Assembly: GCA_030531425.1 (NCBI GenBank)
Contig: JAUNNO010000007.1
Coordinates: forward strand, 1 to 37,035
Length of the DNA: 37,035 nt
Direction: 5' to 3'
Origin: a bacterium
GTDB taxonomy: Bacteria; Bacillota_I; Bacilli_A; RF39; UBA660
Positions 10,760-30,221 of this stretch are shown piece by piece (positions within the stretch are counted from its first letter, which is position 1; each line of letters starts with the position of its first letter). Under the pieces are notes generated by a model, which searched no databases, was not told the origin of the DNA, and saw only the letters and a list, made by a program, of their open reading frames with translations. The position numbers and the translations under genes are program-made.

Positions 10760-11419
10760 CTAACTTTTTTCTACTAATTCACTAATAACAACAATTTGTT
10801 TATTAGTATTATGTCTGCAAGTAATAAGTGTTAAAGTATTCTTTTCTTTATTTCTAATGATATTAGCAGTCCCATTTTTCTCTATATCATAAGTATTAAC
10901 TACTTTGTATTTATACTCTATACCATTATAAAAGATACTTATTAAATCACCATTTTGTAATTTATATAAGTTTTTAAAATAAGAAACTGAACTACTACCA
11001 CTATGACTTGCAAGTATAACATTTCCTTTTTCTACATCAGGACTATCTGACTCTTTTATTATTTGAATATTTCTATTTACATTATTATAATAACTTCCTT
11101 TTTCAGCAAGCCCTTTTTCTAAATTAATTTTTGGTATTTTAATAACTGCTACATAATCATACTTTGGTGAATTATCTTGCTTTAATTCATCTATTTTTTC
11201 TTCGGCTATTTCTTCAGGATTATTAGATATAATTTCTTTTATTTGTTCTTGTCCCTGATAAAAGTTTTTTATTTTATTATCTTCATCTTTTTGAGTAGTA
11301 TATAAATTAAAATGTTTTATTCCTATAATTGATATACTTAATAAAATAAATAAAGAGCCAACTAATAAAAGCTGACTCTTCTTATTTATTTTTCTTTTTA
11401 TCTTTTTTGCCGATAGCAT
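10760..11419 (-). CDS. Element-encoded sortase
   Basis: 219 residues. N-terminal membrane anchor (about residues 16-33), then a sortase beta-barrel with catalytic His in LASHSG (about residue 139) and Cys in LITCRHN (about residue 201). The usual catalytic Arg that comes just before the last strand is not there; that place reads NKQIVV. I start at the ATG at 11419, which has AGGAG nine bases ahead and overlaps the end of the adhesin gene. Its partner is most likely the adhesin gene just upstream, which it would fix to the wall or link into fibres. Confidence 0.88.
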   Translation of the reverse strand: MLSAKKIKRKINKKSQLLLVGSLFILLSISIIGIKHFNLYTTQKDEDNKIKNFYQGQEQIKEIISNNPEEIAEEKIDELKQDNSPKYDYVAVIKIPKINLEKGLAEKGSYYNNVNRNIQIIKESDSPDVEKGNVILASHSGSSSVSYFKNLYKLQNGDLISIFYNGIEYKYKVVNTYDIEKNGTANIIRNKEKNTLTLITCRHNTNKQIVVISELVEKS

Positions 11420-14156
11420 AAAGAACAACTCCTATCCCCATCATAAATAAAGCAGATGCAATTATTTCTACAACATAAGTTTTATCTAATAGTGTATTAG
11501 GAACTTCAATGATAACTTTTTCATCTACCATTGTTGCCTTAACAATTTCGCCATCTTCTTTTATTTCAAAATACATTTTTTCAGGATTTAACTGATAACC
11601 TTCTGGTGCTTCTTTTTCTAAAATATAATATTTACCATATTTTAATTCTTCAATTACTATTTCACCATTTTCATCAGTTCTACCCTCATATATTAATACA
11701 TCATTTTCATTAAATATTTGAATTAATGTATTTGGAAGTGGCTCATCATTTGATATATCTTGTTTTTTGAAATGTAATGTTCCTGTAATAAGTTTATTTT
11801 TCATTTCACTTTTTACAACACTACCATCTTCAAGTATTTCAAATTCAACTTCTTCAAAATTATTTACATAACCATCGGCACTTTGAATTTCTTTAATGAT
11901 ATACTTTCCAGCTGATAAATCTTTAATTTCTATTTGACCTTTATCATCAGTATAACCACTAAAAATTACATCACCATCTAATGTTCTAATTTCTAATAAA
12001 GTATTTGGAATTGGAGTTCCATCTACTAAATCAGTTTTAGTAAATGTTAATGTTCCTTTTTTTAGGTAGTTAGTAATTTCTATTGTTTCTTCTACAATAG
12101 GAGTTTCATTATCAATTTCTTTTAATTCCACTTTGTATTCTTTTGTATCAATTACATAATTATCCAAAGTTTTAGTTTCTTTGATTATATATTTTCCCAA
12201 ATATAAATCAGTAAATGATGATTTACCATATTCATCAGTAGTAATAGTTTTAATTAAATCACCTTTATGAAAATGTATTACACCATCTAATGTAGTAATA
12301 TCTTCATCAGCATATAAAGATAATTCAACACCTTTTAAATTAATTAATTCATATTTAAAAGTATTATCATTAACTTTAAATAACTCACCTAACTTTTCTA
12401 TATGAATTTCGCCTTTTATAACTTGATTAGCAAATGATACTTCTACATATTTACCATAATCTTCATCTTCTATTATTTTGCTATCTTCATCAATTCTAAA
12501 AGTTAAATGATCCTTACTTAATAAATAACCTTTTGGACTAGATATTTCTTCTATCTCATAAGTTCCACTATTAAGTGGATATGGAGTTATAAATATACCA
12601 TTCTCATCAGTAGCAAATTCACATATAGTTTGTTTTTTAGGATATGTTACTTTTTGATAAATGTATTCTTTTGTATCTACATTTTTTATTTTAAAAGAAA
12701 CATTACTATAAGGAATTACCAAACCTGATTCTTTATCAATTTTAATTAATTTTAATTTTGCAGTTATTTCTGCATTAGATAACGAATATCTAATTACTTT
12801 TGGAGAATTGTCATTAACAACAATTTTAAAATCTTTTATCTTTTCATGACCACTTGTAGTATTAACTTGTTTGATAGTATAAGTTCCATAAACTAATTCA
12901 GTTTTAATAAAACCTTGACTATCAGTAGTTAAAGTTTTTACAAGATTATTTTTACTATCATATATTTCAAAAGTAATATTTTCTTCTGGTGTTAAAATAC
13001 CTGTTTCTGCACTAGCAAAAAACTTTAATAACTCTACATCTCTTTTTATGATTTGCTCATATACTTTTATAGTAGGATGTAAAGAATCTTCTTTAATTGT
13101 AAAGTAATATTTATTTGTATCTAAATTATATCCTTTACTAGCAGTTATTTCTTTTAGATAATAATCTCCTAATTCTAACATAGTAGGAGTTTTAGCATTT
13201 CCGTTTTCATCAGTAGTTATTGATGTAATTAAAGTATCACTATAATTATACACACCATAAACTGCTCCTTTTAATGAACTATCTACTCCACTTGGAATAT
13301 TAGTTTGACTATCATTATCTAATTTATTTATTGCAACATCACCACCAACACTATGAACTTTTACAGATGCCATTACTGGATCTGAAAATCTAAAATAACC
13401 CATATTTTGAGATGTTACACCATTACCTAGAAATACAATAGTAGTAAAATTATCATAATGTTTTCTTACAACATTTAATTGTAATTCTCCTGTTTTTAAT
13501 GGAGTAGCATAAATAGTATTACCATCTAATCTAACAGAGAAATCAGTTGATTTATAAACTTCATATTCTCCTAATAAACCATTGGTATCAGTAATTGCAA
13601 TTTCTTTGCCTACTACTGCATCTACACTTTGACCATTAAAACTAGGTTTATTATAATGTGCATTTACTAGTCGCATTATTTCATTTCTTTCAGCATCTAC
13701 ATTAATATAGTCGCCCCAACCTGAAGCTTCTGTCCAATACTCAATTATTTGACCTCCGACAGTTTCCCAAATTAACGCTTGTGCTGCCATTCTATAACGA
13801 ATTGTTTGATGACCTGGATAATCATATCCATAATGACCAATCAATTCAATTAATTTATTTGTTTTTTCATCATAAGGCGAAGCAACAAGACCATCATGAC
13901 CTATATAAGATGATGTATCTATTGGAACTCCTGGCTGAATACAATATACAGTTCTTCCATCCATTGTGTAAGTAGTATATTGAGCAGAGGCATATGCTTG
14001 TCCTCCACCTCTTCTTGTGTACCAAACATCAGGTATTTTTTCTTGGACTAATGTCCCCATTACTTCTGCATTAACTCTACTTGGAGAAATGAAATTAAAA
14101 ATACCAAATAAAGAAATTACTAGTAGTAATGTTTTAAGTATTTTTCTCTTTTTCAT
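11382..14156 (-). CDS. Surface adhesin: thioester domain plus six SpaA/Cna-B-type repeats
   Basis: 924 residues. A signal peptide ends near VNA (residue 30). A thioester (TQXA-type) domain follows, with Cys72 in YCIQPG and the partner Gln126 in AAQALIW; such domains form covalent bonds to surfaces. From about residue 275 there are six prealbumin-like repeats of 80-100 residues, each closing with a Y.I.E/K.....GY motif that fits isopeptide-forming SpaA domains. The C-terminus has a hydrophobic helix and a KKDKKKNK tail. The expected LPXTG-type motif reads VPNTLL, without the usual Gly. The adjacent sortase is the likely partner. It would join donor and recipient cells during mating. Confidence 0.92.
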   Translation of the reverse strand: MKKRKILKTLLLVISLFGIFNFISPSRVNAEVMGTLVQEKIPDVWYTRRGGGQAYASAQYTTYTMDGRTVYCIQPGVPIDTSSYIGHDGLVASPYDEKTNKLIELIGHYGYDYPGHQTIRYRMAAQALIWETVGGQIIEYWTEASGWGDYINVDAERNEIMRLVNAHYNKPSFNGQSVDAVVGKEIAITDTNGLLGEYEVYKSTDFSVRLDGNTIYATPLKTGELQLNVVRKHYDNFTTIVFLGNGVTSQNMGYFRFSDPVMASVKVHSVGGDVAINKLDNDSQTNIPSGVDSSLKGAVYGVYNYSDTLITSITTDENGNAKTPTMLELGDYYLKEITASKGYNLDTNKYYFTIKEDSLHPTIKVYEQIIKRDVELLKFFASAETGILTPEENITFEIYDSKNNLVKTLTTDSQGFIKTELVYGTYTIKQVNTTSGHEKIKDFKIVVNDNSPKVIRYSLSNAEITAKLKLIKIDKESGLVIPYSNVSFKIKNVDTKEYIYQKVTYPKKQTICEFATDENGIFITPYPLNSGTYEIEEISSPKGYLLSKDHLTFRIDEDSKIIEDEDYGKYVEVSFANQVIKGEIHIEKLGELFKVNDNTFKYELINLKGVELSLYADEDITTLDGVIHFHKGDLIKTITTDEYGKSSFTDLYLGKYIIKETKTLDNYVIDTKEYKVELKEIDNETPIVEETIEITNYLKKGTLTFTKTDLVDGTPIPNTLLEIRTLDGDVIFSGYTDDKGQIEIKDLSAGKYIIKEIQSADGYVNNFEEVEFEILEDGSVVKSEMKNKLITGTLHFKKQDISNDEPLPNTLIQIFNENDVLIYEGRTDENGEIVIEELKYGKYYILEKEAPEGYQLNPEKMYFEIKEDGEIVKATMVDEKVIIEVPNTLLDKTYVVEIIASALFMMGIGVVLYAIGKKDKKKNK

Positions 14157-18031: not shown

Positions 18032-18047
18032 CGATTATTGTTTTTTT
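18021..18047. terminator. Bidirectional terminator between convergent genes
   Basis: aaaacaata (18022-18030) pairs with tattgtttt (18036-18044), with A and T runs on both sides; it includes the last codons of the XRE gene. Confidence 0.8.
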
Positions 18048-18664
18048 ACTTTTTTAAAAGTTAAATTAGGTAATACTTTTTTAAATGCTTTTTTTGCCTT
18101 CTCTATATCTAATGTTTTAACAATATATTCATCAAAGCCACACATATCAACAAAGTATTCTCTTTCATTATCAGAAACAGTCAATATTATAACAGGTGTA
18201 TTAAAATCTTTCCTACTCTTTAAATTTGCTAATAATTCTGGTCCACTAATCTTACCTTTAAAAACATTATTAGTAATTATTAAATCATAATCTTTTTGTT
18301 CAGTAATATGTAGTGCATCTTCACCACTAGGAACTACATCAGTTTCTAGTCCCATACTTGTTAATACTCTATTCGTAATAACTGCTGATTCTTCTATATA
18401 ATCTGCAATCAATACTCTAATTTTATGATCAGGAGTATAAATAACTTCATTATTTTCTTTTAATGTTCTCTCATGAATTAAAAAGTTCCATTTTTCTCTC
18501 TCATATTCTTTAACCATTTCTATGTTTCTATCATGTAATATTTTTACATTAGATAACAAGTTCTTATTTTCTTTTTCTAGTAAAGAACATTTATAAATCT
18601 TATAAATGCAATAGATAATAACACATATAAAAAGAATACCTACCACTACAAAAGCCTCTTCCAT
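18035..18664 (-). CDS. Membrane-anchored degenerate receiver (pseudo-REC) protein
   Basis: 209 residues: a membrane helix (about 4-22), a coiled-coil-like part (28-75) and a response-regulator receiver domain (82-200). The receiver resembles those at the C-end of hybrid histidine kinases (DLII...GPELL, then FNTPVIILT and GFDEYIVK). The phospho-acceptor Asp is replaced by Asn132 (TNNVF), and the acidic pocket keeps one Asp (Asp88) where two are usual; Thr162 and Lys183 are kept. So it probably does not take phosphate in the normal way and may act by binding. No output domain is present. Confidence 0.82.
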   Translation of the reverse strand: MEEAFVVVGILFICVIIYCIYKIYKCSLLEKENKNLLSNVKILHDRNIEMVKEYEREKWNFLIHERTLKENNEVIYTPDHKIRVLIADYIEESAVITNRVLTSMGLETDVVPSGEDALHITEQKDYDLIITNNVFKGKISGPELLANLKSRKDFNTPVIILTVSDNEREYFVDMCGFDEYIVKTLDIEKAKKAFKKVLPNLTFKKVKKQ

Positions 18665-19090: not shown

Positions 19091-19096
19091 ATAAAA

Positions 19097-19120
19097 AATA
19101 AACTCTTTTCAGAGTTTATT
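19097..19120. terminator. Bidirectional terminator
   Basis: aataaactct (19097-19106), loop tttc, agagtttatt (19111-19120), with T- and A-rich sides. It separates the XRE gene from the end of the Hsp70 operon. Confidence 0.85.
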
Positions 19121-19406
19121 TTATTTTATTATATAAATATATATAATATCCACCGCTTATTAAATCAAAAACGATCCAAGATTCTTTTTCCATATAGAAA
19201 GGATATATAGGATTAAATAATATTGCAATTGCTATACAAAAATAATTAATCTTTTTATCTAAATTATAATTTTCGTATGCAATAAAAATACTAGCACCAC
19301 ATACAACCCATCTTAAAATTGAATAAAAATCATAAGTACTAATTGGCAATGCACTAACAAATAATATAATAGCAATAGTCAACACAACATTTTTATATTT
19401 TTTCAT
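19116..19406 (-). CDS. DUF6804-like small membrane protein
   Basis: 96 residues with three to four hydrophobic segments. The sequence pattern (LRWVVCGASIFIAYENY, ILFNPIYPFYMEKESWIVFDLI) matches what I know of DUF6804-like small membrane proteins; their function is unknown. It is the last gene of the Hsp70/AAA operon, nine bases after the tail-anchored protein, and ends in the terminator at 19097-19120. It may belong to the same membrane complex. Confidence 0.75.
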   Translation of the reverse strand: MKKYKNVVLTIAIILFVSALPISTYDFYSILRWVVCGASIFIAYENYNLDKKINYFCIAIAILFNPIYPFYMEKESWIVFDLISGGYYIYLYNKIK

Positions 19407-19415
19407 ATTATTCTC

Positions 19416-21227
19416 CTAACTATTGGCAGCAACAATTATTATAAAAATAATAAATGCAATTATAAACCAAATTAAACATCCAGAATTATTTGATGATGAA
19501 CTAGATGAATAAGAAGTGCTTGATGATGTATTTGTTTCTTCATCATCATCGTCATCTTCATCATCTGATTCTTCATAATCAGACCAATCTAATCCAGTAG
19601 AACATTTTGGACATGTTTCATCTTCTACATCAACAGTATATCCACATTCTGGGCATTCAACCAATTTATTAATCCTCTTCTTCAATTCTTTAAATAGCGA
19701 ATTATAACTAACAATCATATCAGCTGACTCACCACTTGAACCATTAAATGGCTCCCCAAGTCGAGCAAACATTTCTCTAATAGTAATTCCATCGCTCATT
19801 ACCCAATCGCCGGGCAATACTTCATATGTGTTTAAAATTCTTCTACGAATATTATTACGAGTGTAACTATCTAAAAATCTATTTTCTAATTGTTTAGATA
19901 ATTCCTCAGTGGTAGCTAAAATATCAAATCCAATACCTCTAATATTATCAAAGAATGTCTTCGTAATATTAGAATCAAATTTTGTATACACTAACCAATA
20001 ATACATTGCTATAAAATTGTCTACATCAATAGGATTAATATATTTATCAGAAGTATGATTTACAGAAGCCTCATGAGTATTTAGAATATATTCTAAAATT
20101 CTATTAAAACCGCTTACATCTGTAAGAACATTAGCAAAAATTCTTAACACTTCATCATTTGGATTCTCAGAAGTTATAATTGAAACAACTTCATACATAT
20201 TATCAGCATTTATATCATTTATAAGATTTTTAATAGCTTCATTATATTCCGAATACCATTCTTCTCCAGCTAAAACAAAATAATCACACAAATCTGATAA
20301 TAAATCAAAATCTTTATTTTCTTCAGTTTTGCTTTTATGTTTTTGATACAAATACGCACAATATTGAATTTTCTTTAAATTTTTATAATTCTTTTTATAT
20401 TCAGTAGGACTTTTCTCTGCTCTCAAACATAAATTAGTAGAAATATATAAAGTTATAAAACTTGATATTTCCTTTAAATCCTTAGCATTAAAAGATTTGC
20501 AAATTTGTTCATAAATATCAATCAATGTATCTGCATATTTATTAAGATCTTTTGACATTTTTTCTATTAAATATTTAACAGAATTTGTATAAAAATCATT
20601 TTTTAATACCTTATTAAGTGAAATCAATGAAATAAGTCTATTAGTTAAATCTCTACCTGTTGCATCTAAAGTCAATGAATTATTTAAATAATCACATAAA
20701 TCTTCATCAAAGTCTTCTTTTCGATTACCAAATTTCTCACTATCAGAAAAAATATTAGTTATTGCATTATACATCTTCTTTAATTCATCATTTTTTAATT
20801 CACCAATAGAATTATAAAATTCATGCATAATTCTATCTAACAAGCAATTAATAAACTCAATATAAATATCATTAGCTTTTTTCTCTGATAATTTAGTTGA
20901 ATAAAAGAATTTTTTATAAAAAGATTCATCTTCAATAATCAACTTTAATTTTTTTGATAGTTCATCAATTTCAGAATAAATATATCCTTTTTTTGCACTA
21001 TCTAATATTTCTAATACCCTATTTAATGAATCAAACTCTTTATTATCTTTATGAGTGGTAAACAATTCTTCTTCAAATAACTTCTCATCATTTGTAATAA
21101 CTTTTAAAACAACAGGTAAATCTTTTCTTTTATTAGGATCTGTTTGAAAAAGCATTTTTATTTTAGCTTTATCTAAATCTGGATTAATTCCGTATTTTTC
21201 AAATATAGTTGTTTTCTTGTATTCCAT
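19416..21227 (-). CDS. Large helical zinc-ribbon protein with C-terminal tail anchor
   Basis: 603 residues, no N-terminal signal. Residues 1 to ~510 are almost all helical and not recognised. A zinc ribbon follows (CPECG near 525, CPKC near 539), then an Asp/Glu run and a Ser-rich linker, then one C-terminal membrane helix (CLIWFIIAFIIF...) ending the chain. This is a tail-anchored layout with the bulk in the cytoplasm. Near the start 'FEKYGINPDLDKAKIKMLF' and 'TDPNK' faintly recall a J-domain with a lost HPD motif; I hold this weakly. Start: ATG at 21227, with AGGTGG inside the end of the previous gene. Confidence 0.8.
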   Translation of the reverse strand: MEYKKTTIFEKYGINPDLDKAKIKMLFQTDPNKRKDLPVVLKVITNDEKLFEEELFTTHKDNKEFDSLNRVLEILDSAKKGYIYSEIDELSKKLKLIIEDESFYKKFFYSTKLSEKKANDIYIEFINCLLDRIMHEFYNSIGELKNDELKKMYNAITNIFSDSEKFGNRKEDFDEDLCDYLNNSLTLDATGRDLTNRLISLISLNKVLKNDFYTNSVKYLIEKMSKDLNKYADTLIDIYEQICKSFNAKDLKEISSFITLYISTNLCLRAEKSPTEYKKNYKNLKKIQYCAYLYQKHKSKTEENKDFDLLSDLCDYFVLAGEEWYSEYNEAIKNLINDINADNMYEVVSIITSENPNDEVLRIFANVLTDVSGFNRILEYILNTHEASVNHTSDKYINPIDVDNFIAMYYWLVYTKFDSNITKTFFDNIRGIGFDILATTEELSKQLENRFLDSYTRNNIRRRILNTYEVLPGDWVMSDGITIREMFARLGEPFNGSSGESADMIVSYNSLFKELKKRINKLVECPECGYTVDVEDETCPKCSTGLDWSDYEESDDEDDDDDEETNTSSSTSYSSSSSSNNSGCLIWFIIAFIIFIIIVAANS

Positions 21228-21229
21228 AA

Positions 21230-22051
21230 CTACCACCTTTTACTTTTATTAACGACAATAGCTTTTTCCTTTGAAATTAACTTACTCCTTACATATATAG
21301 CAGGAGAAATTGTAATTATGGTATTTACAGATTTTTTAGCAGCTGTCGAATCAATAATATCTATTTTCTTTTTTTCATTATCATCCATTTCCTCATAATT
21401 TTTACCATCTGAATATTCTAATGATATCTCTTGTTTAGAAAGAAATGGAAGTAATCTTTTATCATAAAAATTATGAATGGCTTTATTTGCTTTTTTATCA
21501 TCATCAAGCAACATTATTTTGAAGAACTCATTTGCTAAATCTATACTTTCATTAGTTGTTTTATATCTATTCTTTTCATACTCTTCAATAATTGTATCAA
21601 ATGAGTTCAAAAGAAATTCTATGTCTATGTTAACCTTATCTGGAATAGTATAATTTTCTATTCCTTTTTCTTCAACTGTCATTACAAAAGAACTAAACTT
21701 GAATTTTTCTTCAAATAATTCTAATTGTTTATTATATTCATCTTCTTTATCATTTTTATATAGAAGATATAAATACAATTCGTTTGCTTTCTCATCATCA
21801 GGAGAAAAAGCTAGAAACCTTGATATTTCAAGAATAGCAATAAAATAATTTTTGTCTTTTATTAAATCAATTGTATTATTAAAATATTTATATTTTGAAA
21901 AAATAATACTTTTAAAATCTTTTAAATTATATCCACATGCCGAACATTTTTTATCTTTACTATCACATAGATTTCCACATGATGGGCATTTAAACTCAAT
22001 TAAATTTTTTTTTGCTGAATATACATTCAGAAACGACATATCTTTCATCAT
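21230..22051 (-). CDS. Zinc-ribbon helical protein of the Hsp70 operon
   Basis: 273 residues. An N-terminal zinc ribbon has Cys22, Cys25, Cys36 and Cys39 (CPSCG, CSACG). Residues ~50-190 are helical and may be TPR-like. The last 50 residues look like a small beta-rich tail; its end (YVRSKLISKEKAIVVNK) has a hydrophobic rhythm a little like the GrpE tail, which is too weak to claim. It overlaps the Hsp70 stop by ATGA, so the two are translated together. A co-chaperone or adaptor role is inferred from place. Confidence 0.8.
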   Translation of the reverse strand: MMKDMSFLNVYSAKKNLIEFKCPSCGNLCDSKDKKCSACGYNLKDFKSIIFSKYKYFNNTIDLIKDKNYFIAILEISRFLAFSPDDEKANELYLYLLYKNDKEDEYNKQLELFEEKFKFSSFVMTVEEKGIENYTIPDKVNIDIEFLLNSFDTIIEEYEKNRYKTTNESIDLANEFFKIMLLDDDKKANKAIHNFYDKRLLPFLSKQEISLEYSDGKNYEEMDDNEKKKIDIIDSTAAKKSVNTIITISPAIYVRSKLISKEKAIVVNKSKRW

Positions 22052-24513
22052 GCTTTACTTACCAATCCATTAAATAAAGCATTATTTGTTGATTCTTCTG
22101 GTAATTCTGCCATAACTAATTGATATAATCTAGCTGTTAATGAAACAAGTCTATCAGCATCATCAATCATCTCTGGATCATTATCATTTTCATCATATTT
22201 TTTCATAATTTCATCAATTTCTTTAAAATGAATATTTATTTCATTGTTAATTGCACTCTTTAATGAAGGACTAGTATTAGGATCATCTAACGCTGCTAAT
22301 GAAAATCCAAGAATAGCACTTACAATACCTTTAATTTGCGCAAAATATTTCTTAGGATTTGAAATTAAATCTACAGAACTCTTCATAGATAACAAATTAT
22401 CCATACACTTTTGAGCTTCAACCATGTTATCTTTCTTTAAATAACGTTTTCCATAAAAACATTGGTTATCTACATCAAAACTAGATATTTTACTATCATC
22501 TGTAAGTTTTTCTTTAATATCATTTGCAATTTCATCAAATTTTTCTTCAGTTAAAACAGGTGCTGATGGAAGCTCTGATATTGTTTTTTCAAATTTTTGT
22601 GCAACATTGGCATAATGAGTTTCATCATTATTTGCTTTTGCTTCTTCTAATTCTCTTACAATATCTTCTTTTTGACTAATTATTCTATCTTTTTCTTCAT
22701 CATTATCAACATATCTAATGCGTTCTTCGAAAATTTCTTCATAATTTTCAGTTTCTTCAGAATCAATTTGTTCTTGAGTTATATATTCATATCTTCCTTC
22801 TAATTTCTTACCATCCATATCAACTGAAAGTGTAACATTTGAAATAGTATCAACTGTTGTAGTAACAGATAATTTATTACCAATCTTTGCATCATTTGGT
22901 AAATCAATTATAAAATTAAAGATTTTTCGAGTTCCTTCCCAAATTGGTAAAATAATTTGTTTATTACTATATTCATTTATTTTAAAAGTTTCAGTTGTTT
23001 TACTTGGTAGATAAGTTCCTTCATAAACAATTGGAAATTGTTCAGTTTTTCCTTTTTCTACATCAATAATTGTAACAGCAATAGTTTCATTTTGAATTGG
23101 AGTTGGAGCAATTATATCAACATTTCCATCATTTACAGTAGATAATTTATTAATACATTCTTCACCATTAAATAAATTTAATTCTTGATTATTATAATTT
23201 TTCTCATCTATTTCCAAAACAAATGTATTATCTTCATCTACTTTAGCAAATACTGGTTCATCAATGTCAATAGATACTTTTGTAATCTTTCCTTTTTCTA
23301 TTTTGCCAGAAACATAAACTTTTCCATCAATTGAATAAGTAGCATTCATTTTTACTAAAATATTATTTTTTTCATCTTCTAATGAATATCCATTAGAGTT
23401 TGCAACAAACGCAGCACCTGCACTTACAGATAAGTCAGGTTCATAAATAGTTACATCCTTTAATAAATCAGTCTTACAATAATGATCTTTAATAACCTTT
23501 TTTACATATGGAATTTTTGTAGAACCACCAACCATTAAGATATGAGTAATATCACTTATAGTTTTACCATGGTTCTTTTCTAGAAGTTCTAATGCTTTAT
23601 CACATTCTTTAATAATATCTTTTTCAACTTTATCTTTAATTAAATCATCGAATTGTTTTCTAGTAAAATCATCAATAGATAGTTCTATGCCCGTATTATC
23701 TTTAAAAATATCAGGAAAATATATATTATATGAATCATTAACACTTAATTGTTTCTTAACATTTTCCGCAGCAAACATTAATAATCTAAATTTCTTATCA
23801 TCTGCTGAAACTTCTATATCATCTACATTATTACCTCTTTTTTTCAATTCCTCTAAAAAATAACGAGCTATTATAGAGTCAAAATTATCTCCACCTAGGA
23901 AATTATTACCAGCTGTTGCTAAAACTGTTGGAATATTTTCAGTTTTTTCAAGAATAGAAACATCAAATGTACCTCCACCTAAATCGAAAACAAAGAATAA
24001 ACCATTCTCAATATTATTTGAAACAGCATAATTAATAGCTGCAGCTGTTGGTTCTTCTAACAACATTTGAACTTCTAAGCCAGCCAATTCTCCAGCTTTT
24101 CTAGTAGCATCTTTTTGTGCTAGATTAAAATAAGCAGGAACTGTTATAACAACCTTATCATAAACAACATTTTCTTCTTTACCAATAGTATCAATCAAAC
24201 ATTCTTTACAATAATTAATAATTTTTGAAGAAATATCTTCGGGTGTATATTCTTTTTCTCCAAAATTTATTGTTGTTTTCTTACCCATTTCACGTTTAAT
24301 ACTTTTTTTAGAATTAGTATTACCTGTATAAAACTCGTTTTTGGCTAATGTACCATATACCTCACTGCCATTTTTTCTTACAGCAATAATAGATGGTATA
24401 GTTTTATTTTTTCCAGGATTTTCTTCCGCATAAATTACTTTTCCATCTTTAATAATAGAAGCAGTACTATTTGTTGTACCTAAATCTAATCCAAAACTCT
24501 TGTGTATTATCAT
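22048..24513 (-). CDS. Non-canonical Hsp70 (DnaK-like) with altered linker and C-terminal part
   Basis: 821 residues against about 600-640 for DnaK. The ATPase domain (1 to ~380) is complete: GLDLGTTNS (8-16), KREMG (73-77), VPAYF (125-129), EEPTAAA (153-159), DLGGGTFDV (177-185) and VGGSTKIP (328-335). The DnaK linker (VLLLDV) is only faintly echoed, with charged residues in it (ILVKMNATYS near 385). The ~190 residues after it are beta-rich, and ~240 acidic helical residues follow. So it is likely an active ATPase with a non-standard substrate or partner side. AGGAGG precedes the ATG. It lies between the AAA gene (11-base gap) and the zinc-ribbon gene (ATGA overlap). Confidence 0.93.
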   Translation of the reverse strand: MIIHKSFGLDLGTTNSTASIIKDGKVIYAEENPGKNKTIPSIIAVRKNGSEVYGTLAKNEFYTGNTNSKKSIKREMGKKTTINFGEKEYTPEDISSKIINYCKECLIDTIGKEENVVYDKVVITVPAYFNLAQKDATRKAGELAGLEVQMLLEEPTAAAINYAVSNNIENGLFFVFDLGGGTFDVSILEKTENIPTVLATAGNNFLGGDNFDSIIARYFLEELKKRGNNVDDIEVSADDKKFRLLMFAAENVKKQLSVNDSYNIYFPDIFKDNTGIELSIDDFTRKQFDDLIKDKVEKDIIKECDKALELLEKNHGKTISDITHILMVGGSTKIPYVKKVIKDHYCKTDLLKDVTIYEPDLSVSAGAAFVANSNGYSLEDEKNNILVKMNATYSIDGKVYVSGKIEKGKITKVSIDIDEPVFAKVDEDNTFVLEIDEKNYNNQELNLFNGEECINKLSTVNDGNVDIIAPTPIQNETIAVTIIDVEKGKTEQFPIVYEGTYLPSKTTETFKINEYSNKQIILPIWEGTRKIFNFIIDLPNDAKIGNKLSVTTTVDTISNVTLSVDMDGKKLEGRYEYITQEQIDSEETENYEEIFEERIRYVDNDEEKDRIISQKEDIVRELEEAKANNDETHYANVAQKFEKTISELPSAPVLTEEKFDEIANDIKEKLTDDSKISSFDVDNQCFYGKRYLKKDNMVEAQKCMDNLLSMKSSVDLISNPKKYFAQIKGIVSAILGFSLAALDDPNTSPSLKSAINNEINIHFKEIDEIMKKYDENDNDPEMIDDADRLVSLTARLYQLVMAELPEESTNNALFNGLVSKA

Positions 24514-24524
24514 ATTTTTTCCTC

Positions 24525-25805
24525 CTAAACTTCCATGTTTTTAAATTCGTACATTTTATCCATATCTTGCAATGATACGGAAGATTTTATACTCTTTAAA
24601 ACTTCAACACAATCTTCAAAAGTTATTAAATAATTTTTAATATTATCTATTTCTTTGCTAATAACCTTTCTAATCAAACATTCACTTATTTTTTTAATAT
24701 CAGCTCCATTATAATTATTAGTTGCTGAAGCCAAATATTCTAATATATCTTCTTCTACTTTAATAGAAGATAAGTTTTTTTGAAACATTTTTAATCTTAG
24801 TTTTTTATCTGGCAATTCAATGCAAATTAATGAATCAAATCTTCCAGGTCTTAGCAAAGCTGAATCAATATCCCAAGGTCTATTAGTAGCAGCAATAACT
24901 AAAACTGTTTGATCATTTTGTTCAAAACCCTGCATTTGAGCTAAAAGTTCTGGAACAATAGTTTCTGCAGTTAATTCAGCTCCTCTTTTATCTCTAGATA
25001 CTCCGATTGATTCAAACTCATCAAAGAAAATAACGGAAATATCATGCTTTCTAGCATCTTCAAAAAGTTCTTTTACTTTATTTTCTGTATCTCCAAACCA
25101 TTTTGACTTTAAATCAGAAGATTTAATTGAAATAAAATATGCATCAATTTCATTTGCAACAGCTTGGGCAAACATTGTTTTTCCAGTACCTGGTAAACCA
25201 TATAATAAAATTCCACCGCCTAATGAAATATCATATTTTGAATATATATCCTTATATAAAATAGGATCAATTATTTTTTCTTTGACTTTTCGTTTTGCTT
25301 CATCTAATCCAATTAAATCATCAAACATTGGATAAATTTTATCTTTTTTTATACTGCCATCATCTACAAAATTATTAAATAAATCAATATAATAATTTAT
25401 TAAATCCTCTTTATTTTCAAATTTAACAACATCATAAGCATTATTTAAAATCACGCTATATTTTTCAATAATATTTTTAATTCCTTTATAAAAACGTAAT
25501 TTATTCCAATCTTTTGAATTGTAATCTTCATTTAAATATTGTTTACATTCAAATATCAATTCATACATTTCTTTTTTATGTAAAGAAATATAATACACTT
25601 TATTATCTACATTTGAATTAACTTTTTCATAATTAAATAAGAAAATCGAAAAATTTAATAAATAGCAAAATGCTATACAATCTAATTTTGTATCATTAAA
25701 ATATTGTTTAGAATCATTAATAATATTATTAAACCCAATATCATTGCATGAGGTACTAAAATACTTTTCAGCTATGATCAAATAATAATTATTTTCTTTC
25801 TCCAT
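24525..25805 (-). CDS. Cdc48/Vps4-class AAA ATPase
   Basis: 426 residues. An unrecognised helical N-domain (1-160) precedes one AAA module: GLPGTGKT Walker A (203-210), a pore-loop-like KWFG (235-238), Walker B IFFDEFE (259-265), sensor 1 AATNRP (305-310) and Arg fingers in LLRPGRFD (Arg319, Arg322). These are the marks of classic AAA ATPases (Cdc48, Vps4, katanin group), which form hexamers that thread or remodel proteins. I start at the ATG at 25805; the longer frame covers the promoter. It is the first gene of the Hsp70 operon. Confidence 0.92.
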   Translation of the reverse strand: MEKENNYYLIIAEKYFSTSCNDIGFNNIINDSKQYFNDTKLDCIAFCYLLNFSIFLFNYEKVNSNVDNKVYYISLHKKEMYELIFECKQYLNEDYNSKDWNKLRFYKGIKNIIEKYSVILNNAYDVVKFENKEDLINYYIDLFNNFVDDGSIKKDKIYPMFDDLIGLDEAKRKVKEKIIDPILYKDIYSKYDISLGGGILLYGLPGTGKTMFAQAVANEIDAYFISIKSSDLKSKWFGDTENKVKELFEDARKHDISVIFFDEFESIGVSRDKRGAELTAETIVPELLAQMQGFEQNDQTVLVIAATNRPWDIDSALLRPGRFDSLICIELPDKKLRLKMFQKNLSSIKVEEDILEYLASATNNYNGADIKKISECLIRKVISKEIDNIKNYLITFEDCVEVLKSIKSSVSLQDMDKMYEFKNMEV

Positions 25806-25827
25806 ACATATCACACCCACTATAATG

Positions 25828-25869
25828 ATTATATAATATTTTTGCAAATCCTACAATATTTCGGCAAAA
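25828..25869 (-). promoter_or_regulatory. Promoter and dyad ahead of the AAA-Hsp70 operon
   Basis: TTGTAG (25856-25851), 17 bases, TATAAT (25833-25828) on the minus strand. An imperfect dyad, ttttgcaaat (25840-25849) against atttcggcaaaa (25858-25869), surrounds the -35, as an operator would. The CIRCE heat-shock element (TTAGCACTC-N9-GAGTGCTAA) is not seen here. Confidence 0.5.
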
Positions 25870-27215: not shown

Positions 27216-29486
27216 TTAATCATTAATTTTTTTCATTATGTTTCTAAAAACTATTGCAAGAGCCAAATAAATTATCATAATAAGATCAAATGAAGATGTT
27301 TTATAATTAATTCCTGTAACTGGTGCTTTTTCTTCTTTTATTTTCTCATAAAATACTTTTATAACATTATCTTTTTCATCATCTATTATTATTGAACCAG
27401 AATTTTTTATATATTTATAACCTTCTAATTCAATTATATCTTCTTCATTTAATGAAACTTCATCACCAAATATCATATTAATATATTCTTTTGTTAAAGT
27501 ACTATCAATTTCACCATCTAAATAATACTCTACTCTATATTTTAGATTATTTTTCTTTTCATAGTAGAATGTAATAGTTAAATCTTCTTCATTGATTACT
27601 AATTCTTGAGTTTCATCTCCAACTAAATTATAACCTTTTATTTCAATAGCATCTTCTACTACTTTAGAATCATAAGTAACATTTGTAACTTCTTTTGTCT
27701 TTTCTAATTCTTTTTCTGTATCTTTTTCAAGATATTTTACTGTATAACTAAAATCATTTCTCTTAGAATAATTAAATACTAGTACCATCTCATCTGAAGT
27801 TAATATTATATCTTTTGCTTGTTCATCATCTAATACATATCCAAATGGCGCATCCATAGCTTCTTCTGTATAAGTTTCTAAATATGTTTTGTTTTCTCTT
27901 TTTACACTATCAAACAATTCTTCTTCTGTATCTTTATCTATATATTTAACTGTATAAGTTAAATCATTTCTCTTAGAATATAATACTTGAATTATATTTT
28001 GTCCTTCGCCTATTATGTATGGCATTGTTGTTACTATAACACCATTTTTATAGAAATCTGGTCTATATAAATCTTTAGATATATCTTCCTCTTTTATTAT
28101 TGATCCAAATAATTGATTTTCAAAAGTAGTACTTCCTAATTTATTTGTTAAATCATCTTTAAAATATTCAACCAAATATATTAAATCATTCTTTTTAGCA
28201 TAATATACATTTATAATATTTTCTCCTTGAGAGATTTTGTGTTCTACTTTTTCAGTTATTAATCTATAACCTGTTGGTCTTTGTTCATCATATTGAACTG
28301 GTATAATTGCGTTTAAAATATCACTACCAGTTGATGTCTTAAAAGGGACACTCTCTCCTTCTTTAAAGTAGTTTATTGTATAATCATATTTTTTTTGTTC
28401 CCAATAAACTTCAGAACTATCTAAAATTGTATCAGTATTCTCTTCATCATCGGAATCATCATATGTAACACTTGCAAAATCATTTGTTCTATACAATCCT
28501 GTTGGTGAATCAGGATCGATTCTAACTTTAAAAGAAACTTCTTTTGCCTCTTCTGTTATTTCACCTGTATAAAAAGTAATTTGTTTTCCATCACTACTTA
28601 ACTCAGATTCATACTCAGGTGAAGCACTACCTTCTACATAAGTAAATTCATCAGCAATAACATCTTTAATTATAGAATTTTTTCCTGCAGGAATTTCTAC
28701 TTTTATATTTTCAACTATATTACTAAACATAGTTACTATATTATCTACTGATGCGCTAAAATAATGATCATCATCTGTTGCTATATATTTTAATACTTTT
28801 TCTGCCTTTTCATTTACTTCATATCCAATAGTAAAAATTTCAATTCCAGCTTCTTTTGCTTTTTCTGATTCTTTTTTATATCTGTTATTGTTATCTCCTT
28901 CATTTGGAGAACCATCACTTAAAACAATCATATAACGCTTACCATCTTTATCTGAAAGTAGTCCTGTCGCTTTTTTAATAGCAGCTCCTATATAAGTATC
29001 TCCATCAGCTTTTGGAAACGTAACATCAGAAAAATCAGAAGCTTCAAGATCCCTTGTTACTTTTACACTTGTACTAAATGTAACAAGCCCTATTTGAGCT
29101 AATGGATATAATTTATGTAACTGGCTTGCAAAATTAATTGCACCTTCCTTGGCACTACCATATTTATCTACATTATTTTTATTTTCATCGTCCATACTTC
29201 CAGATCTATCAAAAACTACAACAGCATAAATATCTTCTGTTTGTGAAGTTGTTGTTATTGTATTTTTTCCAGACACATTTAAAGTAATTTTATATACTCC
29301 TTCTTCATCAGTTTTTTCAACCGTTTTTTCTAGTTTTACATCACCTGCGTTTGTAAGAGTTCCAACTGAATTTTCTGGATTAATTACATCACCTTTTTCT
29401 AAGGCAAATGCTATTGAAGGAAAAAAGTATGAAACTACAATAGCAATAACCATAATAATATTATTTAATTTTTTAAATTTTGTCAT
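27216..29486 (-). CDS. Wall-anchored vWA protein with five MucBP-like repeats
   Basis: 756 residues. Signal peptide to about residue 28 (AFA). A von Willebrand factor A domain follows (about 85-270) with a MIDAS start DRSGS at 93-97 and the later T-D-G type motifs (GDTYIG, LSDGSP). From ~390 come five repeats of about 70 residues, each opening with 'Y.V.Y' after KKND/KRND, like MucBP/beta-grasp repeats of mucus-binding proteins. The C-terminus has APVTG, a hydrophobic helix and a basic end, which is a sorting signal. The sortase gene lies nine bases upstream, so the two form one operon. Confidence 0.9.
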   Translation of the reverse strand: MTKFKKLNNIIMVIAIVVSYFFPSIAFALEKGDVINPENSVGTLTNAGDVKLEKTVEKTDEEGVYKITLNVSGKNTITTTSQTEDIYAVVVFDRSGSMDDENKNNVDKYGSAKEGAINFASQLHKLYPLAQIGLVTFSTSVKVTRDLEASDFSDVTFPKADGDTYIGAAIKKATGLLSDKDGKRYMIVLSDGSPNEGDNNNRYKKESEKAKEAGIEIFTIGYEVNEKAEKVLKYIATDDDHYFSASVDNIVTMFSNIVENIKVEIPAGKNSIIKDVIADEFTYVEGSASPEYESELSSDGKQITFYTGEITEEAKEVSFKVRIDPDSPTGLYRTNDFASVTYDDSDDEENTDTILDSSEVYWEQKKYDYTINYFKEGESVPFKTSTGSDILNAIIPVQYDEQRPTGYRLITEKVEHKISQGENIINVYYAKKNDLIYLVEYFKDDLTNKLGSTTFENQLFGSIIKEEDISKDLYRPDFYKNGVIVTTMPYIIGEGQNIIQVLYSKRNDLTYTVKYIDKDTEEELFDSVKRENKTYLETYTEEAMDAPFGYVLDDEQAKDIILTSDEMVLVFNYSKRNDFSYTVKYLEKDTEKELEKTKEVTNVTYDSKVVEDAIEIKGYNLVGDETQELVINEEDLTITFYYEKKNNLKYRVEYYLDGEIDSTLTKEYINMIFGDEVSLNEEDIIELEGYKYIKNSGSIIIDDEKDNVIKVFYEKIKEEKAPVTGINYKTSSFDLIMIIYLALAIVFRNIMKKIND

Positions 29487-29495
29487 ATAAGCCTC

Positions 29496-30221
29496 CTATA
29501 TTCTTTTCGCATTGACAACAATAAAAGTATTTTCTTCATTATAATTACAAGTTTGCAGTGTTAAAATCTGATCGCTTTCTTCCACTAATACTCCTGTTTC
29601 ATATATTGAATTTACTTTCATCCACTTTAGATGTTCCACCCATTTTACATCACTAAACCTAATTTGAGTATGAATTGTATCATCTTTAGGTAAAATTTGT
29701 ATAGAAAATATTTGCCATTTACTATTTTCATCATTAATATTTAAAATAATATATTGATGACTATTAAAAAAATCTTCTCTTAAATACTTTTCTAACTCAT
29801 AAAAAGGTGTTTTACTAAGATTTCTAGCATTGTGACCATATATTAGTAATTTTCTATCTGACATAGAATTTCTATAATCTAAAAATATAGAACCATATAC
29901 ATCATAATTTCCATACACATCATGATCTAAGTAATATGAATTATCTTTTGCTTGTACTAATTTACTATCAATATTAGTCTCACTTATAGAAATATTACCA
30001 ATAATATCTTTAGAAGTTTGTGAATATGTAACAGTACTATTTTCTATTTCATTTTTAGAATCTTTAGTAGGTGTATTTTCATAGATATAAACATCTTTAT
30101 CAATACTTTCTTTAGTTTTAATATTACTTTTTGACGAATTATTCATAAATAAATATAAAATTATTAAAACAATTCCTAAAAATATTATGCTAGAAATATT
30201 TAACCATTTAGCTTTATTCAT
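29496..30221 (-). CDS. Class B-like sortase, partner of the vWA protein
   Basis: 241 residues. N-terminal membrane anchor (8-26), then a sortase domain with the class B-like segments YYLDHDVYGNYDVYGSIF and LIYGHN (catalytic His130) and catalytic Cys225 in LQTCNYN. At the place of the catalytic Arg the sequence reads ENTFIVV, so the Arg seems to be replaced; the only later Arg is residue 240. It is transcribed first, from a perfect promoter at 30277-30305, followed by the vWA gene. Confidence 0.88.
   Translation of the reverse strand: MNKAKWLNISSIIFLGIVLIILYLFMNNSSKSNIKTKESIDKDVYIYENTPTKDSKNEIENSTVTYSQTSKDIIGNISISETNIDSKLVQAKDNSYYLDHDVYGNYDVYGSIFLDYRNSMSDRKLLIYGHNARNLSKTPFYELEKYLREDFFNSHQYIILNINDENSKWQIFSIQILPKDDTIHTQIRFSDVKWVEHLKWMKVNSIYETGVLVEESDQILTLQTCNYNEENTFIVVNAKRI

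Follow-up and report, generated by a model that had tools for sequence, protein, structure and literature searches.

The stretch of DNA analysed here, called the window throughout, has 37,035 nucleotides (contig JAUNNO010000007.1, positions 1 to 37,035 of the forward strand, assembly GCA_030531425.1) and comes from a bacterium of the lineage Bacilli_A; RF39; UBA660. The open reading frame calls of the window give five intact genes in tandem on the minus strand (19116-25805), and the first four of them form a cassette that encodes an AAA ATPase, an Hsp70, a zinc-ribbon protein and a membrane-anchored protein of 603 amino acids (aa). Two further genomes have the four core genes in unchanged order, which puts the gene block beyond chance. 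The cassette is a mobile accessory cargo that moves between elements. The features of the locus are:

24525-25805, minus strand: core gene 1, classic AAA ATPase, about 426 aa (Pfam AAA, motifs).
22048-24513, minus strand: core gene 2, Hsp70, 821 aa (Pfam HSP70, motifs, profile alignment).
23122-23400, minus strand: insert of about 93 residues between the nucleotide-binding domain (NBD) of the Hsp70 and a linker-like motif (placed by sequence alignment, no structure model).
22051-22068, minus strand: extreme C-terminus of the Hsp70, GLVSKA (invariant in 3/3 orthologues).
21230-22051, minus strand: core gene 3, zinc-ribbon protein, 273 aa, with helices like tetratricopeptide repeats (TPR) at residues 44-129 (Pfam, model).
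19416-21227 (from ATG), minus strand: core gene 4, all-helical protein of 603 aa with a zinc ribbon at residues 525-545 and a C-terminal membrane anchor.
19422-19481, minus strand: transmembrane segment of the 603-aa protein, residues 583-602 (KD19 3.11).
19116-19406, minus strand: DUF6804 membrane protein, 96 aa, non-core (judged co-transcribed by position).
25819-25847, minus strand: putative sigma-70-like site upstream of the AAA ATG (not above chance level).
19092-19120, minus strand: hairpin and T run 3' of the last gene, AATAAACTCT-GAAA-AGAGTTTATT-TTTT (read by eye).

A preliminary description of this DNA had proposed a five-gene operon served by one promoter. All five genes are indeed present, intact and at most 11 bases apart, the spacings from AAA to Hsp70, zinc-ribbon, 603-aa and DUF6804 genes being +11, -4, +2 and +9 bases. 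The number of members had to be reduced: four genes recur in order in the two other genomes but DUF6804 (Pfam E-value 5e-19) does not, and since it is absent from both of these relatives, the core of the cassette is four genes and DUF6804 is not part of it. The single promoter is plausible only, as a sigma-70-like site is present but such sites are no commoner than in shuffled sequence (72 in the AT-rich region against 67.5 +/- 7.5, not enriched). The AAA gene starts with the ATG at 25805, with an alternative in-frame TTG at 25847. The hairpin beyond the last gene was not listed by a terminator scan that demanded a minimum of three G-C pairs.

A search with the C-terminal half of the Hsp70 recovered the same four-gene block in a genome of another family (G155, contig DUOT01000038, an Acholeplasmataceae metagenome-assembled genome), where it is followed by a serine recombinase gene. 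A family-wide search found the four genes, in the same order, in another genus (G571). Between G571 and the window, identity reaches 67% for the AAA ATPase, 73% for the Hsp70, 50% for the zinc-ribbon protein and 45% for the 603-aa protein, while the backbone of the elements is much more divergent (VirB4 29%, TrbL-like protein 24%, SSB 32%; most shared backbone proteins 24-33%). The G571 element carries type IV secretion system genes (TrbL, PrgI and a T2SSE-type ATPase); the AAA gene there is preceded on the same strand by a gene for a 190-aa protein of unknown family that does not occur in the window (L013:13621-14193). The window element carries a VirB4/TraG-type ATPase, an M23 peptidase and an SSB; neither a relaxase nor an integrase could be identified in the window. 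The status of cargo follows from a cassette that is far better conserved than the surrounding element and that is found in three mobile contexts; the conjugative nature of the window element, also part of the preliminary description, is supported by its VirB4/TraG-type ATPase, M23 peptidase and SSB. The set thus recurs in unrelated elements, a conjugative one in G571 and a contig with a serine recombinase in G155, and its genes are not separately distributed: the other three core genes adjoin every window-type Hsp70 found, although one AAA gene is broken. This is the G155 copy (L006:6967-7790), whose N-terminal region is missing and whose motor domain is interrupted by an in-frame stop, the other three genes being open. 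The G155 cassette may be decaying.

The residence in conjugative elements raises the possibility that the cassette is an accessory of conjugation, in which case it would help to build or control the transfer machinery or surface proteins, or aid establishment in a new host. Of the three window-type cassettes, two are part of conjugative elements, and a membrane anchor would suit a transfer apparatus. However, the transfer genes of the two elements are 24-33% identical while the cassette is conserved, the cassette occupies a different position within each of them, the third copy stands beside a serine recombinase gene, and the distant versions described below are found on Tn7-like elements and contigs of a viral collection. 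We consider this explanation quite improbable.

The cassette is rare. There were three carriers in about 1,500 genome look-ups, drawn with overlap from the family, order, class and phylum, and 15 further genomes of the genus do not have the 603-aa protein. No matches were obtained in viral-contig scans with the Hsp70, the AAA ATPase and the 603-aa protein of the window, nor in a first genome-contig scan with the 603-aa protein, and tblastn returned nothing for the 603-aa protein against plasmids and phages or for the zinc-ribbon protein against plasmids.

Both motor proteins are as the preliminary description had them, a classic AAA ATPase and an Hsp70 with complete ATPase motifs. The AAA protein (Pfam E-value 6e-40) has an N-terminal region of 160 aa of unknown fold, one AAA module and a weak Vps4-type match at the C-terminus. 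Walker A (GLPGTGKT), Walker B (IFFDEFE) and RPGRFD are intact, the protein has the Walker A/B and arginine-finger features of the classic AAA clade (Cdc48/PAN/katanin), and the nearest PDB relative of the motor is Cdc48/p97. It falls under every curated NCBIfam cut-off (CDC48 202 against 803, PAN 194 against 500, FtsH 167 against 600). Its top PADLOC match is a component of IetAS (122 bits, confined to the AAA domain); we rejected an identity with IetA, as NF042959 scores 109 against a cut-off of 510 and the cassette has no protease gene.

The NBD of the Hsp70 is complete (Pfam E-value 1.6e-71), with residues 5-371 aligned to the DnaK profile at 275 bits and the phosphate and adenosine motifs DLGTTNS, DLGGGTFD and GGSTKIP at fixed positions in all three orthologues. 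Then come about 93 residues (about 372-464) with no DnaK counterpart, a linker-like VDIIAPTPI at residue 465, a region similar to the beta part of the substrate-binding domain (SBD) and a long helical tail, in which the terminal GLVSKA is invariant among the three orthologues and the surrounding sequence is not. The protein stays below the curated equivalogs (DnaK 260.6 against a cut-off of 648, HscA 220.7 against 620). Relative to G155, identity is 58% for the Hsp70 and 35% and 31% for the partner proteins (31% for the 603-aa protein), so the Hsp70 is the best conserved and the two partners change fastest.

Both partner proteins have zinc-ribbon Pfam matches below the cut-off, yet their CxxC pairs are present; beyond these short ribbons, neither matches anything in Pfam. 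Their AlphaFold models were built from two-sequence alignments and have pLDDT values of 59-60. Within the low-confidence model of the zinc-ribbon protein, the TPR-like helices have good local confidence. A C-terminal strand pattern had suggested GrpE for this protein, a candidate that was discarded because its wing score of 12.1 was equalled in 10 of 60 shuffles. The 603-aa protein has an acidic, Ser-rich linker between zinc ribbon and membrane anchor, and its C-terminal end is the sole strong membrane segment among the four core proteins (KD 3.1). Its description as tail-anchored holds for the window, but in G155, where the body is kept at 31% identity, the zinc ribbon and the membrane helix are exchanged for a CFI-box-CTERM domain (L006:1642-3579; NF041770, 76 bits, cut-off 40). 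A Ser-rich linker precedes the tail in both forms. As one tail stands in for the other at a single position, the CFI-box, like the membrane helix, may be a module for localisation; no description of a role for this domain was found in the literature. The N-terminus of the 603-aa protein matches helices I and II of the J-domain in the register to be expected, but weakly (18.7, E 0.005, 100 shuffles at most 16.3). The protein has no HPD, and an invariant FQTDPxKRKDLP stands where HPD would be; in the low-confidence model, helices span residues 2-12, 20-29 and 34-45, with the TDP loop between the second and the third.

Long Hsp70s paired with AAA ATPases were also found on plasmids, Tn7-like elements and viral contigs. 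In the type seen in proteobacteria, the operon begins with the gene for a 122-aa protein, followed by those for an 830-aa Hsp70, an AAA ATPase (about 475 aa), a peptidoglycan-binding membrane protein and a large zinc-ribbon or J-like protein (540-690 aa); in Shewanella and in one viral contig (L060), this last protein has its zinc ribbon at the N-terminus. On plasmids of Shewanella xiamenensis and Aeromonas caviae (L022:1-17623 and L043) this operon lies directly downstream of Tn7-like transposition genes; the Hsp70 of the A. caviae plasmid is annotated as two pieces. The Polaromonas operon, without the peptidoglycan-binding gene, is flanked by Zorya on one side and BREX-2 on the other. In Vibrio the last two genes are in reverse order, and a Mokosh-like pair of helicase and PLD protein and a CARF regulator are nearby. 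Five IMG/VR contigs carry the operon, one of them (L063) starting inside the Hsp70 gene with the first gene out of view. In another (IMGVR_UViG_3300044948_000910, L060:500-18394), HmaA (2139 bits), a PtuA-like ATPase and a WYL regulator stand beside the Hsp70-AAA operon, and by its gene content this region is a defence island. The small first gene of the operon on this contig (L060:7594-7998) gave a marginal GrpE match (E 0.037). One genome from the class of the window itself (G236) has an operon of the proteobacterial type without the peptidoglycan-binding gene. Finally, plasmid pHALHY02 of Haliscomenobacter has a row of genes for a CFI-box protein, a membrane protein with coiled coils, an Hsp70 of 841 aa and an AAA ATPase fused to a kinase, and this row directly adjoins BREX-1 genes. 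Other loci that we inspected were set aside as different systems (haloarchaeal, HscC and Paracoccus Hsp70 loci and a Fusobacterium AAA locus), and a Nonomuraea match was an ordinary DnaK.

The connection of the window cassette with these operons comes through the Hsp70. A profile made from the Hsp70 C-termini of the window type (three proteins) scores 53.7 with ten long Hsp70s, where none of 30 column shuffles exceeded 22.0, and 34.1 with the C-termini of DnaK and HscC (shuffles at most 20.0). Since both values exceed the shuffles, the C-terminal region appears SBD-like and nearer to the long Hsp70s; once trimmed, the region scores no better than shuffles. In both groups, some 95-120 additional residues separate the NBD from the SBD-like region. 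A tree built on the NBDs of 16 Hsp70 proteins, with support given as paired values, has the long Hsp70s as one group (100/99) and the window type as another (100/100) on a long branch; the split that would unite the two against DnaK, HscC and others has 84/75. The window cassette probably belongs to a wider class of long-Hsp70/AAA systems. The grade is probable because the link is made through the Hsp70, the partners and the N-terminal domains of the AAA proteins not being detectably homologous.

Several observations weigh against this membership and against a role in defence. The same tree places the window type between the long Hsp70s and the DnaKs, outside the long-Hsp70 clade, and the inserts between NBD and SBD-like region of the two groups are not detectably alike (13.9, with 9 of 30 shuffles as high). 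By profile comparison, neither the partner proteins nor the N-terminal domains of the AAA ATPases could be related to their counterparts in the distant systems, and the 603-aa body showed no homology to the J-like proteins of the distant types or to the CFI-box protein. Foldseek searches with the low-confidence partner models returned generic helical repeats and TPRs, none significant, and the weak J-domain match suggests a J-like N-terminus as a lead only. No known defence gene was found beside the window cassette or beside either orthologue, and for the distant relatives such neighbours come from a handful of loci, with no matched control. The cassettes may then be independent assemblies around Hsp70 and AAA, that is, the pair would have been joined several times and the window cassette would be functionally unrelated to the systems of defence islands. 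The separate placement in the tree and partners that are not homologous at profile level speak for such an origin. On the other side, the C-terminal similarity of the Hsp70s is well above shuffles and exceeds that to DnaK, the proteins are alike in length (about 820-845 aa) and in having extra sequence between NBD and SBD-like region, and the same CFI-box tail is found on the large partner in the Acholeplasmataceae and Haliscomenobacter versions. On balance we find repeated assembly doubtful, if worth keeping in mind.

The main rival is a stress-tolerance cassette, with tLST as the precedent. Hsp70 and an AAA unfoldase make a classic disaggregation pair, the AAA motor is nearest to Cdc48/p97, and AAA disaggregases are known as the basis of mobile islands (PMC8407380, PMC8290217, PMC6995612). 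However, the cassette has no small heat-shock protein, ClpG/ClpK, FtsH or thioredoxin genes, its AAA protein is outside the Clp family, its relatives adjoin anti-phage systems and the host already has dnaK, grpE and dnaJ. We judge a role in stress tolerance unlikely. The preliminary description had left the choice between defence and stress cargo; its defence half is favoured here through the neighbours of distant relatives, but no known defence gene was found beside the cassette in the window itself.

Our preferred reading is that the cassette encodes an Hsp70-AAA machine tethered to the membrane, which most likely serves in defence, and we give this reading an even chance of being right. The 603-aa protein would use its C-terminal helix to hold the assembly at the inner membrane face and would probably recruit the Hsp70, for which a degenerate J-like N-terminus may serve. 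The zinc-ribbon/TPR-like protein would be an adaptor, possibly gripping the C-terminal GLVSKA of the Hsp70; eukaryotic TPR co-chaperones grip EEVD in a parallel way. The Hsp70 would bind a target polypeptide and the AAA ring would pull on it, comparable to the pairings of Hsp70 with ClpB and with Cdc48. The target would most likely be a protein or complex of a phage or plasmid, or a host complex perturbed by invaders, because the cassette is mobile cargo, is rare and has distant relatives in defence islands. The cassette would then act as a chaperone-based immune system. More tentatively, and with somewhat less than an even chance, we suggest a self-contained, membrane-anchored Hsp70-AAA machine that recognises or dismantles invader proteins. 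It would be the first immunity built on an active, dedicated Hsp70, carried in at least three phyla by plasmids, integrative and conjugative elements, Tn7-like elements and other mobile elements, and the window cassette would be its divergent type in gut Bacilli.

Other genes of the window lie around the cassette. The gene at 18035-18664 encodes 209 aa, with a hydrophobic segment at the N-terminus and a receiver domain, and is adjoined by a helix-turn-helix regulator on the opposite strand; its product is possibly a regulator of the element. A SpaA-repeat surface protein is encoded inside the element region (11382-14156), and a VWA protein with a sortase lies between the element and mnmA (27216-30221).

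Phages are known to depend on chaperones of their hosts. If our preferred reading is true, a mobile operon with its own Hsp70 and AAA motor would turn protein remodelling itself into a weapon or a sensor, and chaperone-based immunity could be tested through two ATPase-dead mutants. The exchange of membrane helix and CFI-box-CTERM hints in addition at a localisation role for the CFI-box domain. In one known case a chaperone already acts as the sensor of an immune protein: bNACHT25 needs DnaJ to detect a phage coat protein (PMC12169576).

The four-gene set appears to be new as a gene set. That no described system has this set, as first stated from the sequence, agrees with all sources searched: PADLOC, NCBIfam and Pfam have no model for the gene set or for the two partner proteins, and the full-text literature gave no description of it within a search reach that excluded most subscription-journal papers and bioRxiv-only preprints. 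In PADLOC 2023 there were only generic AAA matches, and the Hsp70, zinc-ribbon and 603-aa proteins were unmatched save for marginal ones. Like the canonical DnaK-DnaJ-GrpE system with ClpB, the cassette combines an Hsp70 and an AAA motor with intact ATPase motifs in both. It differs in that the Hsp70, with 821 aa, has additional sequence ahead of the linker and a tail longer than that of DnaK, the AAA protein is of the Cdc48/katanin type with one module, unlike ClpB, and the cassette is mobile and has two zinc-ribbon partners instead of DnaJ and GrpE genes. With IetAS (AAA plus subtilisin) it shares a classic AAA module, but it has an Hsp70 and no subtilisin, and its AAA protein scores higher against CDC48 (202 bits). 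A tLST-type stress island is likewise a mobile island with protein-remodelling machines; the cassette has no ClpG, small heat-shock protein or FtsH, and we rejected this assignment, as no Clp or Hsp20 family occurs among its genes. The literature yielded a single system that comes near, the CoCoNuTs. Those of types III-A to III-C form a predicted restriction system that includes CnuD, Hsp70-like proteins with a reportedly degenerate ATPase, and is built on McrB-like GTPases, McrC homologues and nucleases (PMC11090510). In contrast, the Hsp70 motifs of the cassette are intact and it has neither McrB nor nuclease; an assignment to CoCoNuTs was discarded, since the five proteins contain no McrB-like GTPase or McrC/DUF2357 domain.

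Two further arrangements that resemble the cassette are apparently undescribed. The proteobacterial-type operon also has an adjacent long Hsp70 and AAA ATPase, a large partner (with a zinc ribbon in some) and mobility, but its AAA gene follows the Hsp70 gene, whereas in the window it precedes it, and it has a small first gene and usually the peptidoglycan-binding membrane protein. The pHALHY02 cluster of Haliscomenobacter differs in the fusion of its AAA ATPase to a Ser/Thr kinase domain, in the presence of TerB and WD40 genes, in its position beside BREX-1 and in a coiled-coil membrane protein in place of the zinc-ribbon/TPR protein. Nevertheless, it brings together a CFI-box partner, an Hsp70 and an AAA ATPase, and the CFI-box tail is common to this cluster and to the Acholeplasmataceae relative of the window cassette.

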